NCBI RefSeq assembly: GCF_004364175.1
Contig: NZ_SNZW01000016.1
Location: forward strand, 343,133-407,132
Length of the DNA: 64,000 nt
Origin: Maribacter caenipelagi
GTDB taxonomy: Bacteria; Bacteroidota; Bacteroidia; Flavobacteriales; Flavobacteriaceae
Reading direction: 5' to 3'
The notes beneath the pieces are model-generated. The model had not been told where the DNA came from and did no database searches. It saw only the letters and a list, made by a program, of their open reading frames with translations. Shown here piece by piece: positions 52,413 through 61,254 of this stretch. Both the position numbers and the translations under genes were made by a program. How positions within the stretch are numbered: the stretch's first letter is position 1; each line of letters opens with the position of its first letter.

Positions 52413-53244
52413 AGTTCTAAAAGCAGGTTTTTACACCACGGTTCAAGACGCAGGTAGATTTCATTATAGAAATAAAGGGGTACCCGTGTCTGGTGTTATG
52501 GATGAAATGTCGGTTTTTAAGGTGAATTCTCTGCTTGAGAATGAAGAGTCTTCTGCCGTGTTAGAAATTACTATGACGGGACCAACTCTCATTTTTGAAA
52601 AAGAAACCTCTATGGCGCTTGGTGGTGCAAAAATGTCTGCCACACTTAATAATTTACCTATTCAGAATTATAAAGTCTATAGGATAGAAAAAGGTGATAT
52701 ACTTTCTTTTGGTCGTTTAGAAAAAGGGTTTAGATCATACCTAGCTGTAAAGGGTGGCTTCACATCTAAAGAAATATTGGGTAGTAGATCATTTTACAAA
52801 CCTATTACCAAAGTCAATAGATTGATTGATAATGATAATGTTCCTTTTTCGCTAGTGGAAGATTTTCAGCCTAAATTATCAGAAATAAAGGTCGCTTCAT
52901 TTTTAGATGAATCTGTTTTAGAGGTAAACAAAGCACCAGAATTTGATATATTGACGGATAAGCAGTTGGAAGAAATTTTCTCTAAAACATTTACTGTAGC
53001 TCATGAGAATAACAGAATGGCATATCAGTTATCAGAAACTATAACACCACATACGAAATCAATGCTTACTTCGGCAACTATACCTGGTACGGTACAATTG
53101 ACACCTGCTGGAAAATTGATTGTGCTAATGAAAGATGGACAAACAACTGGCGGATATCTAAGGGCTGTTCAATTAACAGATAAGGCAATCTGTATTCTAG
53201 CACAAAAGAAGGGCGGAGACGTTGTTAGCTTTAAATTGGTGTAA
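52405..53244 (+). CDS. pxpC: 5-oxoprolinase subunit PxpC (KipA-like)
   Basis: This 279-residue protein of the carboxyltransferase subdomain A/B family (allophanate-hydrolase subunit 2, KipA). It opens with the family start LKAGFYTTVQDAGRFHYRNKG (split over residues 4-24) and has ALGGAKMSA, RSYLAVKGGF (about 111-120) and LTSATIPGTVQLTPAGKLIVLM near the end. It overlaps pxpB by 8 bp and closes the operon. It is slightly shorter than the Bacillus protein but carries the main motifs. Confidence 0.94.
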   Translation: MLKVLKAGFYTTVQDAGRFHYRNKGVPVSGVMDEMSVFKVNSLLENEESSAVLEITMTGPTLIFEKETSMALGGAKMSATLNNLPIQNYKVYRIEKGDILSFGRLEKGFRSYLAVKGGFTSKEILGSRSFYKPITKVNRLIDNDNVPFSLVEDFQPKLSEIKVASFLDESVLEVNKAPEFDILTDKQLEEIFSKTFTVAHENNRMAYQLSETITPHTKSMLTSATIPGTVQLTPAGKLIVLMKDGQTTGGYLRAVQLTDKAICILAQKKGGDVVSFKLV

Positions 53245-53312
53245 TATGATACTTTTTCAACCGATTTTGTTAAGGCGCGATTAATCACCCATATTTTCAG
53301 TACTATTGTAGT

Positions 53313-53363
53313 ATGAAATTATTAAACCTACATATTGAAATAGTCATTGTCATTCCTATTTGA
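53313..53363 (+). CDS. ilvL: ilv operon leader peptide (attenuator), 16 residues
   Basis: The ORF reads MKLLNLHIEIVIVIPI. Ten of sixteen residues are branched-chain: three Leu, five Ile and two Val, the end products of the operon that follows. Codons 8-14 alternate Ile and Val with one Glu. The ORF ends inside the first arm pair of an overlapping hairpin set, and an intrinsic terminator begins 27 nt after its stop codon. This is the layout of classical ribosome-mediated attenuators such as E. coli ilvGMEDA. When charged Ile/Val/Leu tRNA is scarce the ribosome should stall over codons 10-14 and free the antiterminator. Confidence 0.88.
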   Translation: MKLLNLHIEIVIVIPI

Positions 53364-53427
53364 GGATGATATAGCTTTTCATAATATGGAAAAACCTGTA
53401 TCAGATGTATTTGATGCAGGTTTTTTT
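53350..53427 (+). promoter_or_regulatory. Transcription attenuator: alternative hairpins upstream of ilvD
   Basis: Three mutually exclusive pairings are visible. Pause hairpin (1:2): 53350-53357 with 53363-53369, seven pairs with one bulged T, overlapping codons 13-15 of the leader ORF. Antiterminator (2:3): 53367-53374 (TGATATAG) with 53396-53403 (CTGTATCA), eight pairs including one G-U. Terminator (3:4): 53390-53403 with 53412-53425. Segment 2 cannot pair with 1 and 3 at once, nor 3 with 2 and 4. Confidence 0.85.
53390..53427 (+). terminator. Attenuator terminator of the ilv operon
   Basis: Fourteen-bp stem with one G-U pair (arms 53390-53403 and 53412-53425), 8-nt loop, and a run of seven T ending at 53427. 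It lies 207 bp before ilvD, far from the pxpC stop (145 bp), and is preceded by the Leu/Ile/Val-rich leader ORF, so it serves as attenuator rather than as the pxp terminator alone. Confidence 0.9.
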
Positions 53428-53580
53428 ATGGAAAAAGAATAATATCAGTCTGATTCAAAGTATTGAATATGGTATATAGTTGTTGTTTAAATATCTGATA
53501 TACAGTTTTTTAGACATAATTTTGATAAAATGAATTTGTATTGTCAATTATTGTTAAAATTAGAAATTTTTATAAACTTT

Positions 53581-53588
53581 TATCTTTG
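53581..53588 (+). promoter_or_regulatory. Candidate promoter element between attenuator and ilvD
   Basis: TATCTTTG matches TAnnTTTG, 46 bp upstream of ilvD. The nearest TTG lies 27 bp upstream, longer than normal. If active, it would supply attenuation-independent transcription. Confidence 0.3.
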
Positions 53589-53634
53589 ATTAAGGAGTAT
53601 TAAGAAATCAAGATAAGCATACGAGAATTATATT

Positions 53635-55311
53635 ATGGAGTTGAACAAACATAGTAAGAATGTAACCCAAGATCCAACACAACCAGCGGCACAAGCAATG
53701 CTTTATGCTATTGGTTTAACTGAAGAAGATTTAAAGAAACCATTAATTGGTATTGGTAGTACAGGTTATGAGGGTAATCCTTGTAATATGCACTTAAATG
53801 ATTTGGCACAAGAGGTCAAAGTCGGTGTCAATAGCAATGGCTTAGTTGGTCTTGTATTTAATACTATTGGTGTAAGTGATGGTATTTCTATGGGTACATA
53901 CGGTATGCGTTACTCTTTACCTTCAAGAGATATTATCGCAGATTCTATGGAAACTGTGGTGCAAGCAATGAACTATGATGGTTTGGTTACTGTTGTAGGT
54001 TGTGATAAAAATATGCCTGGTGCGCTTATGGCAATGATCCGTTTAAATAGGCCTTCCGTATTGGTTTACGGTGGTACTATAGCTTCCGGTTGTTATAAAG
54101 ATAAGACCTTAGATATCGTTTCTGCTTTTGAAGCTTGGGGAGAGAAGGTTGCCGGTACTATGAATGAAGATGATTACAAAGGTGTAATTCAGAACGCATG
54201 TCCTGGTGCAGGTGCATGTGGTGGTATGTATACTGCTAATACCATGGCATCTGCTATTGAAGCTTTGGGTATGGCTATGCCTTATAATTCTTCTAACCCT
54301 GCTATTGGAAAAGATAAGCAGTACGATGCTATAAATTCTGGTAAGGCTTTAAGAAACCTTCTAGAGAAAGATATTAAGCCAAGCGATATCATTACCCGTA
54401 AATCTATGGAGAATGCTATCCGTTTGCTGACACTTTTAGGTGGGTCAACGAATGCAGTACTACACTTCTTGGCGATTGCCAAAGCTGCCGATGTTGAATT
54501 TACTTTAGATGATTTTCAAAAAATTAGTGATACCACGCCATTCTTGGCAGATTTAAAACCTAGTGGTAAATTCTTGATGGAAGATGTTCACCGTGTTGGA
54601 GGTGTACCTGCCGTTATGAAGTTTATGCTAGAAAACGGAATGTTACATGGCGACTGTCTTACTGTTACTGGTAAAACAATTGCAGAAAACTTAGCTGAGC
54701 TTCCAGGTTTATTGGAACATCAGCAGGTTATTAAGCCTTTGAGCAATCCTATTAAGGCGACAGGTCATTTACGTATTCTTTATGGCAACCTTGCAACTGA
54801 AGGTGCTGTGGCTAAGATAACTGGTAAAGAAGGTTTGTATTTTTCAGGTCCGGCTAAAGTATATAATGACGAGTTTCTTGCCAATGCAGGTATCGGTAGA
54901 GGTGAAGTGAAAAAGGGAGATGTTGTGGTTATTCGCTATGAAGGACCAAAAGGAGGGCCTGGTATGCCAGAAATGTTGAAACCGACTGCAGCTATTATGG
55001 GTGCGGGTCTTGGTAAAGATGTTGCTTTGATTACAGACGGTCGTTTCTCTGGTGGTACGCACGGTTTCGTAGTAGGTCATGTGGCTCCTGAAGCACAAGA
55101 TGGTGGTACAATCGGTTTATTAGAAGACGGAGATATTATCACTATTGATGCAGAGAAGAATGAAATATCTGTGGATCTTACAGACGAGCAATTATCAGAA
55201 AGAAAAAAGAATTGGAAACAACCAGAATTAAAGGTAAAAAGAGGAAGCTTATACAAATATGCACGTATGGTATCTTCGGCATCTAAAGGTTGTGTTACCG
55301 ACGAGTTTTAA
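53635..55311 (+). CDS. ilvD: Dihydroxy-acid dehydratase
   Basis: This 558-residue enzyme dehydrates 2,3-dihydroxy-isovalerate and -methylvalerate to the 2-keto acids that yield Val, Leu and Ile. The Fe-S cysteines are in place: GNPCNMHLN (about residue 51), [10 protein letters not shown] (about 123) and [13 protein letters not shown] (about 190-202, the last Cys in ACGG), followed by [16 protein letters not shown] near 470, which holds the catalytic Ser. Length and motifs are standard for the IlvD branch. It is the first structural gene after the attenuator, and the operon continues with ilvB 93 bp later. Confidence 0.97.
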
Positions 55312-55404: not shown

Positions 55405-57138
55405 ATGGAAACAGTAAAAGAGAAGAAAAAAAGTACAGATTCCAAGAAAACTATTAAGATTTCTGGAGCAGAGGCAATAATTCATTGTTTGTTGGCTGAA
55501 GGTGTGGAGACAATGTATGGCTACCCTGGTGGCGCAATTATGCCCGTCTACGATGAACTATATAAGTTTCAAGATAAATTAACGCATATTCTTACTAGAC
55601 ATGAACAGGGCGCTACGCATGCTGCTCAAGGGTATGCACGTGTTTCCGGTAAAGTAGGTGTTGCTATTGCAACTTCTGGTCCTGGTGCTACTAACTTAGT
55701 TACCGGTCTTGCAGATGCACAAATAGATTCAACTCCTATGGTTTGCATTACAGGTCAGGTTACTAGACAACTGTTAGGTACAGATGCTTTTCAAGAAACT
55801 GATATCATAGGTATTTCTACACCGGTAACGAAATGGAACTATCAAATTACCGAAGCTTCTGAAATACCAGAAGTAATGGCGAAAGCTTTTTACATAGCTA
55901 AATCAGGTAGACCAGGTCCGGTTCTAGTTGATATTACTAAAAATGCACAAATAGATACCTTCGATTTCTCTTACGAGAAATGTACTGCTGTTCGTAGTTA
56001 TAAGCCGGTTCCAAAACCAAAAATGAGTGCAATTCAAGCAGCTGCAGATTTAATCAACAGCGCTAAAAAACCATTTATAGTTTGGGGGCAAGGTGTTATT
56101 CTTGGTCAGGCAGAACAAGAATTAAAAGCGTTGGTAGAGAAAGCTGGAATTCCTGCTGCATGGACTATAATGGGTGCATCTGCTTTAGATACCGCTCACC
56201 CTTTAAATGTTGGTATGGTGGGTATGCACGGTAATTACGGACCAAACTTAATGACCAATGAGTGCGATTTGTTAATTGCCATTGGTATGCGTTTCGATGA
56301 TCGTGTAACTGGTAGATTAGAAGATTATGCGACACAAGCGAAAGTCATACATTTTGAAATTGATCCGGCAGAGATAAATAAAAACGTTCATGCAGATGTT
56401 GCCGTTTTAGGAAATTCTAAAGAAACATTAGGCCTACTATTACCATTAGTAAATGAAAATAAGCACGAAGCTTGGCATAATATTTTTAAAGAGAAATATC
56501 AAATTGAGTTCGATACTATTATAAAGAATGATATTCATCCAACCAAAGATGGCTTGACCATGGGTGAGGTGATAGAAGAAATTAATTTAGCTTCAAACAA
56601 TAAAGCAGTTATCGTTTCTGATGTAGGTCAGCACCAAATGATCGCTTGTAGGTATGCTAAATTCTCTCAGTCTAAAAGTAATATTACTTCAGGTGGATTA
56701 GGTACTATGGGTTTTGCTTTACCAGCAGCTATAGGTGCCAAAATGGGCGCTATGGATAGGGAAGTGGTTGCTATCATTGGAGATGGTGGTTATCAAATGA
56801 CTATTCAGGAATTAGGTGTAATTTTTCAACATAAAGTACCTGTTAAGATTGTTGTTTTAAATAATGAGCATTTAGGTATGGTTCGCCAATGGCAAGAGTT
56901 GTTCTTTGAGAAGAGATATGCATCGACTGTAATGGTGAATCCGGATTTTGTAAAAATAGCCGAAGGATATAGCATTGAGGCAAAACGAATTTCTGAACGC
57001 AAAGATTTAAAATCTACTATTCAGGAAATGATGGCTTCTAAAGAACCTTATTTCTTAGAAGTTAAGGTGGAGCAAGAAGATAATGTTTTTCCAATGATTC
57101 CTTCCGGAGCTTCTGTTTCTGAAGTTAGATTGAAATAA
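55405..57138 (+). CDS. ilvB: Acetolactate synthase, large (catalytic) subunit
   Basis: This 577-residue ThDP enzyme condenses pyruvate with pyruvate or 2-oxobutyrate. ThDP Glu is in RHEQGATHAAQGYAR (about 72-86), FAD-linked motifs include GVAIATSGPGATNLVTGLADA, and the ThDP/Mg2+ site is GDGGYQMT (about 461-468) with NNEHLGMVRQWQ. It also has the early motif YGYPGGAIMPVYDEL (about 39-53). It needs IlvN, encoded two genes downstream, for full activity and feedback inhibition by valine. A short Lys/Ser-rich N-terminal extension (1-15) is unremarkable. Confidence 0.97.
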   Translation: METVKEKKKSTDSKKTIKISGAEAIIHCLLAEGVETMYGYPGGAIMPVYDELYKFQDKLTHILTRHEQGATHAAQGYARVSGKVGVAIATSGPGATNLVTGLADAQIDSTPMVCITGQVTRQLLGTDAFQETDIIGISTPVTKWNYQITEASEIPEVMAKAFYIAKSGRPGPVLVDITKNAQIDTFDFSYEKCTAVRSYKPVPKPKMSAIQAAADLINSAKKPFIVWGQGVILGQAEQELKALVEKAGIPAAWTIMGASALDTAHPLNVGMVGMHGNYGPNLMTNECDLLIAIGMRFDDRVTGRLEDYATQAKVIHFEIDPAEINKNVHADVAVLGNSKETLGLLLPLVNENKHEAWHNIFKEKYQIEFDTIIKNDIHPTKDGLTMGEVIEEINLASNNKAVIVSDVGQHQMIACRYAKFSQSKSNITSGGLGTMGFALPAAIGAKMGAMDREVVAIIGDGGYQMTIQELGVIFQHKVPVKIVVLNNEHLGMVRQWQELFFEKRYASTVMVNPDFVKIAEGYSIEAKRISERKDLKSTIQEMMASKEPYFLEVKVEQEDNVFPMIPSGASVSEVRLK

Positions 57139-57156: not shown

Positions 57157-57735
57157 ATGAACGATACTAACATACAAGACATTCCAAAAATACATACGGA
57201 GATTATCCGTAAATCTGAGGAAATCGGATTCACAATGCCGTCAGATTTGTATGTTGGTAGCTTTCTAAAAACCTTGATAGCCTCTAAGCCTAACGGTAGG
57301 TTTTTAGAAATAGGTACCGGTATTGGTCTTAGCCTTTCTTGGATGATAGAGGGTATGGATGCCGAATCTAAATTAATATCCGTAGATAATGATCAAGAGT
57401 TAATTTCTATTGCCACTAGTTATTTTGGCGGTGATGATAGGGTTGAGGTTATTTGTAAAGATGGTGCAGATTGGATAAAGAATTATACAGGATTAAAATT
57501 CGATTTAATTTTTGCTGATGCCTGGCCAGGAAAGTATAGTGAGATCGATGGGGTTTTGGATTTAGTTAAAGTTGGCGGATTTTACATTATCGATGATATG
57601 ACAAAACAACCAAATTGGCCAGATGGTCATGAAGATAATGTCGTTGAACTGACAGCGTATTTAGAGCAACGTGAAGATTTGCAACTTACAAAAATGAACT
57701 GGTCTACCGGTTTAATAATGGCAGTTAAGAAGTAG
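57157..57735 (+). CDS. O-methyltransferase-like SAM-dependent methyltransferase within the ilv operon
   Basis: This 192-residue class I methyltransferase of the catechol-O-methyltransferase type (Methyltransf_24/3). The SAM loop is FLEIGTGIGLSLSWM (49-63), the ribose-binding acid is in LISVDND (73-79), motif IV is LIFADAWPGKYSE (117-129; the Asp121 that binds metal in related enzymes), and GGFYIIDDM lies at 140-148. It sits 18 bp after ilvB and 63 bp before ilvN, so it is transcribed with the pathway genes although no methyl transfer is known in branched-chain synthesis. The substrate is unknown. Confidence 0.85.
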   Translation: MNDTNIQDIPKIHTEIIRKSEEIGFTMPSDLYVGSFLKTLIASKPNGRFLEIGTGIGLSLSWMIEGMDAESKLISVDNDQELISIATSYFGGDDRVEVICKDGADWIKNYTGLKFDLIFADAWPGKYSEIDGVLDLVKVGGFYIIDDMTKQPNWPDGHEDNVVELTAYLEQREDLQLTKMNWSTGLIMAVKK

Positions 57736-57798: not shown

Positions 57799-58317
57799 AT
57801 GGAAAATAAATGGTTTACAATATCGGTATATTCAGAGAATAATGTTGGATTACTGAACAGAATATCAGGTATATTTTTAAAGAGACATATTAATATAGAG
57901 AGTCTAAATGTCTCTAAATCAGAGATTGATGATGTTTCTAAATTTACGATTGTAGCACATACAACCGAAAAATGGGTGCATAATATCGTTGGCCAGATCG
58001 AAAAACAAATAGAGGTTATAAAAGCATATTACCATACTGATGATGAAACCATTTATCAAGAATCTGCTTTGTTCAAAATAGCATCGGGTCTTTTGTTTGA
58101 CGAACGTCAAATTCAGAATATCATAAAAGATAACAATGCACAGATCGTCACCGTATCAAGAGACTTTTTCGTAATTGCTAAAAGTGGTAGAAGAAATGAA
58201 ATTGATGAAATGCATGATCAATTAAAGCCGTACGGCATCATGCAGTTTGTACGCTCTGGTCGTATTTCGGTTACTAAAGATGAAATGAAAATTTCAGCGA
58301 TACTAAAAGAATTTTAA
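57799..58317 (+). CDS. ilvN: Acetolactate synthase, small (regulatory) subunit
   Basis: This 172-residue subunit has an N-terminal ACT domain (about 5-77; FTISVYSENNVGLLNRISGIFLKRHINIES spans two motifs) that binds valine, and a C-terminal domain (about 85-170; RDFFVIAKSGRRNEID and MQFVRSGRISV) that contacts and activates IlvB. Length equals that of the longer bacterial IlvN/IlvH subunits. It is separated from ilvB by the methyltransferase gene, which is unusual, and followed by ilvC after 40 bp. Confidence 0.96.
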   Translation: MENKWFTISVYSENNVGLLNRISGIFLKRHINIESLNVSKSEIDDVSKFTIVAHTTEKWVHNIVGQIEKQIEVIKAYYHTDDETIYQESALFKIASGLLFDERQIQNIIKDNNAQIVTVSRDFFVIAKSGRRNEIDEMHDQLKPYGIMQFVRSGRISVTKDEMKISAILKEF

Positions 58318-58357: not shown

Positions 58358-59833
58358 ATGGCCAATTATTTTAATACGCTATCATTAAGAGATAAATTAA
58401 CGCAACTTGGAAAATGTCGTTTCATGGATTCGGCTGAGTTTGCAGATGGTGTAAATGCTTTAAAAGGCAAAAAAATTGTAATCGTAGGTTGTGGTGCACA
58501 AGGGTTGAACCAAGGTTTAAACATGAGAGATTCTGGTTTAGATATTTCTTACACACTTCGTGATGCTGCTATAAAAGAAAAGAGACAATCTTTTGTAAAT
58601 GCATCTGAAAACGGATTCACAGTGGGTACCTATCAAGAATTGATTCCTACTGCAGATGTTGTTATTAACCTTACTCCAGACAAGCAGCATACAGCTGTCG
58701 TTAGTGCGGTAATGCCATTAATGAAAAAAGGCGCTACGCTTTCTTATTCTCACGGTTTCAATATCGTAGAAGAAGGTATGCAAATACGTGAAGATATAAC
58801 GGTAATTATGGTTGCTCCAAAATGTCCGGGATCAGAAGTACGTGAAGAATATAAAAGAGGTTTCGGTGTACCAACTTTAATAGCGGTTCACCCAGATAAC
58901 GATCCTCAAGGTAAAGGATTGGAGCAGGCTAAAGCTTACGCAGTTGGTACTGGTGGAGATAGAGCAGGTGTATTAATGTCTTCTTTTGTTGCTGAAGTAA
59001 AATCAGATTTAATGGGCGAGCAGACTATTCTATGTGGTTTGTTACAAACAGGTTCTATTCTTTGTTTCGATAAAATGATCGAAAAAGGAATTGACGCCGG
59101 CTATGCTTCTAAATTGATTCAATACGGATGGGAAACTATTACGGAAGGAATGAAATATGGTGGTATTACACACATGATGGATCGTCTTACCAATCCTGCA
59201 AAAGTTAAAGCTTTTGAATTATCAGAAGAATTAAAAGATATCATGCGTCCGTTGTTCCAAAAGCATATGGATGATATTATGACCGGTCATTTCTCTAAAA
59301 CGATGATGGAGGATTGGGCTAATGATGATAAGAATTTATTAACATGGAGAGCGGCAACAGGAGAAACTGCTTTCGAGAAAACTCCTGCAGGTAGCCAAGA
59401 GATTACTGAACAGGAGTTTTATGATAACGGCGTGCTAATGGTTGCTATGGTAAGAGCTGGTGTAGAATTGGCTTTTGAGGCAATGACAGAATCAGGAATT
59501 ATTGCTGAGTCTGCATACTACGAATCTTTACATGAAACTCCGTTAATTGCGAACACGATTGCTCGTAAGAAATTGTTTGAGATGAACCGTGTTATTTCTG
59601 ATACTGCTGAATATGGTTGTTACTTATTTGATCATGCATGTAAGCCATTATTGACTGATTTTATGAAAGGCATAGATACTGATGTTATCGGTACAAACTT
59701 TTCTGAAGATATTGATAATGGAGTAGATAATGCGCAATTAATTGCGATAAACAAGGCATTACGTACACATCCGGTAGAAATTGTTGGTACACGATTACGT
59801 GAGTCAATGACAGCGATGAAGCCTATCGTATAG
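58358..59833 (+). CDS. ilvC: Ketol-acid reductoisomerase, class II (long form)
   Basis: This 491-residue enzyme converts acetolactate and acetohydroxybutyrate to dihydroxy acids with NADPH and Mg2+. The Rossmann loop is [20 protein letters not shown] (35-54 region), followed by [16 protein letters not shown], whose Arg/Lys side chains suit NADPH. The core [12 protein letters not shown] holds metal and substrate residues. The length and the duplicated C-terminal knotted domain mark it as class II, like the E. coli and plant enzymes, rather than the roughly 330-residue class I. It lies between ilvN and ilvA. Confidence 0.97.
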
Positions 59834-59988: not shown

Positions 59989-61254
59989 ATGAAAGGGACT
60001 AAACCGGCATATTTTCCAGAACTAGATGATGTCTTACAGGCAGCACAGACTATTTCTGAAATTTCAGAGGTGACTCCGCTAACAGAAAGTATTCGTTTGT
60101 CTAAACAGTATAACTGTCAAGTTCGTTTAAAACGAGAAGATTTACAACGTGTACGTTCTTACAAAATTAGAGGTGCTTTTAATAAAATAAGCTCTTTAAC
60201 CGAAGAGGAACGAGCAAAAGGTGTCATTTGTGCCAGCGCTGGTAACCATGCACAAGGAGTTGCTTTTGCATGTTTCCATTTAAAAATTAAGGGTACAATT
60301 TATATGCCATCGGTTACTCCAAAACAAAAAGTCGAGCAGACTAAACTGTTTGGTGGCGAATGGGTAGAAATCGTTCTGGAAGGAGATACGTTTGATGATG
60401 CCTCTCTAGCTGCTAAAGCCTTTGGTGATAGCACAGGTAAAATCTTTGTTCACCCGTTTGATGATCCTAAGATTATTGAAGGTCAAGCTACGGTTGGTCT
60501 TGAGTTGATTTCACAATCAAAAACACCTATAGATTATCTATTTGTATGCATTGGTGGCGGTGGTCTAGCATCTGGACTCATTGGTGTTTTTAGTCAGCTT
60601 TCGCCAAATACTAAAATTATAGGAGTGGAACCTAAGGGTGCTCCATCCATGAAAACATCTATTGAGGCAGGTAAAGTGGTTGCGCTTGATCATATTGATA
60701 AGTTTATAGATGGTGCTGCGGTTAAAAAAGTTGGTAGTTTAACCTATCCTATCTGTAATTATTACTTAGATAATATGATTACGGTAGATGAAGGTAAAGC
60801 GTGCCAGACTATTCTAGATCTTTACAATAGAGATGCCATAGTTGTTGAACCTGCCGGTGCGTTATCTATTGCAGCTTTAGATGAATATAAAGAGGAAATT
60901 GAAGGTAAAAATGTAGTTTGTATTATTGGTGGAAGTAATAATGATATTACGAGAACAGCGGAGATAAAGGAAAGAGCATTGCTTTATGGAAAACTAAAGC
61001 ATTATTTTATCATAAGATTTCCTCAAAGACCTGGTGCCTTAAAAGAGTTTGTGGTAGATATATTAGGACCAACGGACGATATTACCCATTTTGAATATTC
61101 TAAGAAGTCTAGTAAGGAAAATGCACCAGCTGTAGTGGGTATTGAGCTTAAACATCCCGAAGATTTAAAACCATTGATCGAACGTATGAAAACTAACAAT
61201 TTTTATGGCGATTATATAAATGATAAACCAGATTTGTTTGAATATTTGGTTTAA
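59989..61254 (+). CDS. ilvA: Threonine ammonia-lyase (threonine dehydratase), IlvA
   Basis: This 421-residue PLP enzyme deaminates threonine to 2-oxobutyrate, the first step to isoleucine. PLP Lys59 is in VRSYKIRGAF, the phosphate loop is CIGGGGLASG (about 185-194), and SAGNHAQGVAFA lies near residue 84-95. The C-terminal part (about 335-420) is a single ACT-like regulatory domain (FIIRFPQRPGALKEF), so it is of the shorter Bacillus-type architecture rather than the two-domain E. coli form. Placement in the ilv operon supports the biosynthetic role. It is set apart from ilvC by 155 bp containing a large hairpin. Confidence 0.95.
   Translation: MKGTKPAYFPELDDVLQAAQTISEISEVTPLTESIRLSKQYNCQVRLKREDLQRVRSYKIRGAFNKISSLTEEERAKGVICASAGNHAQGVAFACFHLKIKGTIYMPSVTPKQKVEQTKLFGGEWVEIVLEGDTFDDASLAAKAFGDSTGKIFVHPFDDPKIIEGQATVGLELISQSKTPIDYLFVCIGGGGLASGLIGVFSQLSPNTKIIGVEPKGAPSMKTSIEAGKVVALDHIDKFIDGAAVKKVGSLTYPICNYYLDNMITVDEGKACQTILDLYNRDAIVVEPAGALSIAALDEYKEEIEGKNVVCIIGGSNNDITRTAEIKERALLYGKLKHYFIIRFPQRPGALKEFVVDILGPTDDITHFEYSKKSSKENAPAVVGIELKHPEDLKPLIERMKTNNFYGDYINDKPDLFEYLV

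Follow-up and report, generated by a model that had tools for sequence, protein, structure and literature searches.

Directly 5′ of the isoleucine/valine biosynthesis genes of Maribacter caenipelagi lies a compact module that probably acts as an Ile/Val attenuator and shuts these genes off when both amino acids are plentiful. We consider it very likely that it works by classical ribosome-mediated attenuation, sensing charged Ile and Val tRNAs. A short leader ORF, encoding the amino acids that are the products of the operon's genes, is followed by three overlapping hairpins, the last of them an intrinsic terminator. We regard the locus as a well-supported example of a known attenuator type, with two local twists: a probably leaderless start of the leader ORF and a probable bypass promoter. 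All positions are those of the window, by which we mean the whole 64,000-nucleotide stretch of DNA that was analysed.

The leader ORF and its three hairpins

Downstream of the attenuator, the operon runs in the order ilvD-ilvB-(a gene with weak methyltransferase-type matches)-ilvN-ilvC-ilvA, and the ilvD of the window shares 97% identity with its Maribacter stanieri counterpart. The bracketed gene, at 57157-57735 between ilvB and ilvN, has NCBIfam matches that are of methyltransferase type and weak. On the upstream side, a pxpC-like 5-oxoprolinase subunit gene ends at 53244, and the leader ORF starts 69 nt later. The attenuator and the operon genes comprise the following features:

53313..53363, plus strand: leader ORF, MKLLNLHIEIVIVIPI followed by a stop codon; an Ile/Val/Leu-rich ORF is present here in 33 + 26 non-redundant leaders
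53343..53354, plus strand: control codons GTC ATT GTC ATT, from the codon profile of 33 genus-level leaders and masked folding
53350..53369, plus strand: pause (1:2) hairpin, arms 53350-53357 and 53363-53369 with one bulge, pairing conserved
53367..53403, plus strand: antiterminator (2:3), arms 53367-53374 and 53396-53403, inner stem 53376-53380 and 53389-53393
53390..53427, plus strand: intrinsic terminator (3:4), arms 53390-53405 and 53410-53425, T-run 53421-53427
53635..55311, plus strand: ilvD, dihydroxy-acid dehydratase (TIGR00110 above cut-off)
55405..57138, plus strand: ilvB, acetolactate synthase large subunit (TIGR00118 above cut-off)
57799..58317, plus strand: ilvN, acetolactate synthase small subunit (TIGR00119 above cut-off)
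58358..59833, plus strand: ilvC, ketol-acid reductoisomerase (NF003557 and TIGR00465 above cut-off)
59989..61254, plus strand: ilvA, threonine ammonia-lyase (TIGR02079 above cut-off)

The leader ORF has 16 codons, and 10 of the 15 residues after Met are branched-chain amino acids (3 Leu, 5 Ile and 2 Val). This Leu/Ile/Val fraction is reached by 2 of 349 window ORFs, the leader ORF being one of the two, in a comparison set of ATG-started ORFs of 13-20 codons on both strands that includes nested starts. A first-pass annotation had claimed this ORF and the three hairpins from the sequence, with segment 2 common to pause and antiterminator and segment 3 common to antiterminator and terminator; every part was found where it had been placed, and the segments are shared as described.

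The antiterminator comprises 8 pairs in its outer stem and 13 with the inner stem (-8.9 kcal/mol), and the terminator stem has a fold energy of -18.4 kcal/mol. Folding of the stretch 53313-53440 gave -35.2 kcal/mol, whereas its shuffles averaged -20.1 (z -4.27) and none of 200 was as good; by our reading, the excess stability comes mostly from the terminator. A simple terminator scan of positions 52800-54000 reported no terminator, probably because the A-tract of the stem pairs with the T-tract and leaves no free T-run. Such a scan is uninformative for this stem type, as is an E. coli-type promoter scan for this phylum.

Conservation of the module in Maribacter and its family

We searched for ilvD in 60 genomes, including that of the window, and found a match at E <= 1e-150 in 38. 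The module lies upstream of ilvD in 33 of the 39 loci obtained (the window's own counted), 32 of them from the genus of the window, Maribacter, and one, L020, from a sister genus. The loci without it are one that ends inside ilvD (L018), a second ilv cluster (L040), three from other families (L029, L037 and L039) and that of a congener, L019, which has no attenuator module upstream of ilvD. From these and further loci we analysed two alignments, A1, with 33 rows at genus level, and A2, with 29 rows across the family. Of the 40 loci L041-L080, A2 contains 29 and leaves out L064, L069 and L072-L079, in which ilvD was not found, and L080, which is antisense of the window; because these loci were those found by model R1, pairing in A2 is biased towards the R1 terminator.

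All three stems pair in the great majority of aligned cells. The terminator is paired in 100% of cells in A1 (13 pairs tested) and 99.4% in A2 (11 pairs tested), and in either alignment five pairs are changed on both sides (0/500 shuffles each). Double-change cells of the terminator number 17 in A2 (0/500 shuffles), and further pair types stand at 393/500. For the pause stem, 97.8% of cells are paired in A1, with covariation not above shuffles (54/500), and 91.1% in A2, with 25 double-change cells (0/500 shuffles) and a number of doubly changed pairs not above shuffles (208/500). The antiterminator is paired in 97.6% of A1 cells (covariation score 0/500 shuffles, doubly changed pairs 31/500) and 95.3% of A2 cells, its covariation in A2 not exceeding that of shuffles (score 47/500, double-change cells 246/500). 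When the stems were slid by 1-3 columns, at most 63% of cells paired in all six tests, and slid versions of the antiterminator paired in just 23-43% of A2 cells. The antiterminator is thus supported by conserved pairing and not by strong covariation, each of its arms being constrained by a second stem, and its covariation is the weakest point of the attenuator assignment. This comparison had been proposed in the first-pass annotation, and when it was run, relatives proved to share not only the leader ORF and its Ile/Val codons but also the three pairings. The compensatory changes that it had looked to are present in the terminator and pause stems, but the antiterminator covaries weakly in A2 and the module is missing from L019.

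We profiled the codons of 59 non-redundant leaders (33 from A1 and 26 from A2, with L041, L042 and L043 dropped as duplicates), the choice among several possible start codons, here and in the ORF and box counts, being made by script or by hand. Where codons start 16-27 nt before segment 2 (four positions), Ile, Val or Leu codons account for 85-100%; at 13-15 nt they account for 94% in A1 and 65% in A2, and closer to the segment for 0-19%. Among the 33 genus-level leaders, 94-97% of codons starting 13-24 nt before segment 2 encode one of the three, which are also frequent at some positions farther upstream, with 85% at 31-33 nt and 76% at both 37-39 and 46-48 nt. Ile/Val/Leu codons peak at the place where stalling would put the ribosome over segment 1 and leave segment 2 free. 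In 45 of the 59 leaders the stop codon is the codon that opens segment 2, and in the window it stands 6 nt earlier. Of the 33 A1 leaders, 25 have GTC as the codon that begins 24 nt before segment 2, while among the Val codons of the 11 window genes counted GTC has a share of 9%; pairing may explain part of this bias, because the second GTC in the window and segment 1 overlap.

Across the family, model R2 matched 55 of 199 genomes at E <= 0.01. Among the ilvD places listed, 41 of the 199 have an R2 match on the ilvD strand and no more than 1.2 kb upstream of ilvD; 28 of these genomes supplied the model's training leaders and 13 did not. The match lies 0.9-1.14 kb upstream in 8 of the 41, leaving space for an intervening gene, which by reading is ilvE-like in those loci inspected. 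At E <= 1e-6, all 37 matches in the 199 genomes are upstream of ilvD on its strand, 28 of them being the model's own training leaders and 9, from 8 genomes, coming from outside the training set. Among the weaker matches, judged against the ilvD places listed, 20 are located elsewhere and another 10 are antisense shadows of the same hairpins. With ilvD found at E <= 1e-200 in 152 of the 199 genomes, most ilvD-bearing members of the family are unmatched by R2 upstream of the gene. We inspected 16 loci without an R2 match; in those of G153 and G190, terminator-like stems follow leader ORFs, indicating that R2 misses some leaders, and the same scan gave no leader in the remaining 14.

Among 80 named ilvD loci, searched with up to 600 nt upstream and including some named copies of the model-building genomes, 38 matched on the right strand at E <= 0.01. 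The matching records include Maribacter, Arenibacter, Zobellia, Cellulophaga, Allomuricauda, Saonia, Croceivirga and Tenacibaculum. A phylum-wide search with R1 matched 12 of 296 genomes at E <= 0.01; five of the matched genomes are outside the family and none of the five has ilvD in the retrieved locus, so that nothing beyond the family was found with R1. L039, from another family of the order (genome G038), has a different Ile/Leu/Val-rich ORF, MRVNNVILSIIILLCQL, upstream of ilvD, and by eye a hairpin and a T-run lie between the two, an arrangement that suggests attenuators beyond the Flavobacteriaceae.

Two loci hold more than one unit. In L114 (G150:C40:14900-16800), two tandem attenuator copies 134 nt apart, at about 400-668, are identical at 80 of 88 bases over the compared leader stretch; each has its own Ile-rich leader ORF and terminator-like hairpin, and the pair precedes an ilvE-like gene (by reading) and then ilvD. 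On the minus strand of L142 (G001:C1:3764900-3766100), a congener's second ilv cluster, two successive and dissimilar leader ORF-terminator units stand before an ilvE-like gene. One leader ORF there is MKNRNIIASILEIVIISHER and another ends in MTTIISKIIISIIILPPR, and the first unit has a TATATTTG box 15 nt before its ATG. In a crude scan of the same genome, the stretches before hisG, trpE, two homoserine-dehydrogenase genes and two leuA-like genes yielded no matching leader ORF accompanied by a terminator. The negative is a weak one: for one leuA-like gene, most of the stretch was taken up by the preceding operon, and about 540 nt lay upstream of that operon.

Promoter-like boxes on either side of the terminator

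The leader ORF and ilvD are each preceded by a promoter-like box, with a further conserved block between the terminator and the second box:

53301..53308, plus strand: P1 -7 box TACTATTG, matching 5/6 of TAnnTTTG, with the transcription start predicted at or next to 53313
53461..53471, plus strand: conserved block TATTGAATATG, between terminator and P2, a 90% consensus of 33 aligned regions
53581..53588, plus strand: P2 -7 box TATCTTTG, past the terminator, with the start predicted at about 53593

We called a -7 box at a match of at least 5/6 to TAnnTTTG. Such a box precedes the leader start codon in all 33 A1 leaders, at 12 nt in 32 and at 13 nt in one, and stands at 12-13 nt in 15 of 29 A2 leaders. 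An additional box lies at 22-24 nt in 13 of the 33 A1 leaders; the window is without one. As a control, a box was found 12-13 nt before 37 of the 2407 ATGs of the window, and before 12 of 426 in AT-rich surroundings. In F. psychrophilum the -7 box spans -12 to -5 (PMC9723704), and the transcript should therefore begin at, or about one base from, the leader AUG. The leader ORF would then probably be leaderless and translated from the first RNA base. Leaderless mRNAs make up only 5.5% of the mapped F. psychrophilum mRNAs, according to the same study, which also describes the unusual promoters of Bacteroidota and their departure from Shine-Dalgarno use at translation starts (PMC9723704). Leaderless leader ORFs have precedents elsewhere, in S. 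meliloti trpL (PMC7298713) and C. glutamicum ilvB (by a title cited in PMC10272879).

The P2 box lies 45-58 nt before ilvD in all 33 aligned regions, reading TATCTTTG in 32 and TACCTTTG in one, and TAnnTTTG occurs somewhere between the terminator and the next ORF in 21 of 29 A2 loci. The attenuator-less congener L019 retains the box. This conservation predicts a promoter that bypasses the attenuator, and P2 is probably such a promoter. In the block TATTGAATATG, every column is conserved to at least 90% across 33 relatives; L019 has the block as well, and it is perhaps a regulator site. Although otherwise borne out, the first-pass annotation had missed both the probable leaderless start and this second promoter-like box between terminator and ilvD.

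The presence of two boxes raises the alternative of a weak P1 and a P2 that accounts for most ilvD transcription, with the attenuator tuning a minor fraction only. P2 is a full match to TAnnTTTG, versus 5/6 for P1, and persists in L019 where the attenuator is lacking, but a box match is a poor guide to promoter strength and the attenuator has been kept upstream of ilvD in the 41 of 199 family genomes counted above (among the ilvD places listed). We judge this alternative to be rather unlikely. In the attenuation that we propose, P2, lying beyond the terminator, would probably supply basal expression outside attenuator control.

The proposed switch and its known counterparts

From the anatomy of the module, its conservation and its base pairing, we infer the following order of events. 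RNA polymerase would use P1 and begin either on the A of the leader AUG or right beside it, and because transcription starts there, the ribosome would load on an almost leaderless 5′ end. With Ile and Val plentiful, the ribosome would get to the stop codon and cover segment 2, and the 3:4 terminator at 53390-53427 would form. With Ile or Val short, the ribosome would stall on the GTC/ATT codons at 53343-53354, covering segment 1 and leaving segment 2 to pair with segment 3, which would allow read-through into ilvDBNCA. If no ribosome were present, 1:2 would pair and the terminator would form.

Folding of the nascent RNA is consistent with this scheme. In RNA extending to 53405, the antiterminator folds with an assumed ribosome footprint to 53355 or 53364; with the ribosome assumed at the stop (footprint to 53373), it cannot form, and without a ribosome the pause stem forms. 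In full-length RNA the terminator forms whether the assumed ribosome mask covers segment 1 or segment 2, and therefore the switch must be kinetic. A kinetic choice between folds is a property of classical attenuators. Judged from sequence, the locus combines the features of a classical ribosome-mediated attenuator: a short leader ORF in which codons for the amino acids made by the operon abound (10/15 in the window; 59 leaders profiled); a mutually exclusive antiterminator and terminator with a common segment (pairing conserved, covariation of the A2 antiterminator weak); a pause/anti-antiterminator stem that overlaps the end of the leader ORF; and control codons at which a stalled ribosome would mask segment 1 alone, together with a stop at which it would mask segment 2 (from the profile, the stop offsets and folding with an assumed footprint). 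The earlier reading of the locus as following the logic of an E. coli ilv-type attenuator was right, on the basis of anatomy, comparative conservation and nascent-RNA folding.

A metabolite riboswitch, T-box or protein-bound leader in which the ORF is incidental is a very improbable alternative, even though elements of such kinds control ilv genes elsewhere, as T-boxes do in other bacteria. A ppGpp riboswitch on ilvB is also mentioned (PMC10272879), but nothing in the window scores at the gathering threshold of any Rfam family, and the conserved stretches of the leader are largely accounted for by the codons and the three stems. The best cis-regulatory Rfam match is a sub-threshold one to Thr_leader RF00506 over 53319-53430; at 19.5 bits it is far below the gathering score of 55, and membership was rejected. 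Equally hard to credit is that the hairpin is a mere terminator of the upstream pxpBC operon beside an ORF that is Ile/Val-rich by chance: the 5-oxoprolinase subunit gene does end only 69 nt before the leader ORF, but the P1 box sits between pxpC and the hairpin, and we rejected an upstream-operon terminator alone since conservation extends from the terminator to the ORF, its codons and the two alternative stems, also in loci where tblastn gave no pxpB or pxpC within about 1500 nt upstream (e.g. L044, L050, L051 and L056).

Ribosome-mediated attenuation of the classical kind is exemplified by the E. coli ilvGMEDA and ilvB leaders. The module described here shares with them an Ile/Val/Leu-rich leader ORF, the pause/antiterminator/terminator logic and ilv genes downstream, but differs in sequence and phylum and in its probable leaderless start and second promoter-like box past the terminator. 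The Corynebacterium ilvB leader (ilvB-II motif) likewise has a branched-chain-rich uORF that attenuates an ilv operon (PMC10272879, PMC11857589), but it is actinobacterial, precedes ilvB and has another sequence; the C. glutamicum ilvB leader peptide is formed without a ribosome binding site, going by the title of Morbach 2000 as cited in PMC10272879. As predicted here, the 5′ end of the attenuator RNA of Sinorhizobium meliloti trpL is the ATG of the leader ORF (PMC7298713), although that is a Trp leader of an alphaproteobacterium.

The first-pass annotation had called such attenuators less well described in this phylum, which is fair, but they are not unknown there. The abstract of Vitreschak 2004 is said to name Bacteroidetes/Chlorobi. 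In the same family as the window, the F. psychrophilum transcriptome gave clues to leader-peptide attenuation, with structured 5′ regions before amino-acid operons, in an account whose available part names no ilv leader, ORF or switch details (PMC9723704). A trp motif of Bacteroidetes, thus from the same phylum, is listed as Bacteroid-trp RNA RF01692 (PMC2864571). In the open-access literature we found no described flavobacterial ilv leader. Given the attenuator features of the locus, the lack of an Rfam family at threshold and flavobacterial attenuation in print without ilv details, we therefore regard it as an uncatalogued example of a known mechanism. We incline, by a small measure, to a fuller picture: an uncatalogued, Flavobacteriaceae-wide Ile/Val attenuator with a 5′-terminal leader ORF, a bypass promoter that sets the floor of expression and, in some relatives, a tandem two-terminator gate.

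The basic mechanism is textbook; its conservation in many relatives and the probable first-base translation start are what make this case distinctive. The alignments A1 and A2 and the models R1 and R2 now represent a family with no Rfam score at threshold, and the module may offer a natural Ile/Val-responsive part for marine flavobacteria. If our reading is true, Bacteroidota gain a concrete, testable amino-acid attenuator. Because leaderless mRNAs are rare in F. psychrophilum, a leader ORF that is both conserved and leaderless would reveal how sensing ribosomes are loaded there, and such a ribosome could do without Shine-Dalgarno-type loading, of which this phylum makes hardly any use.
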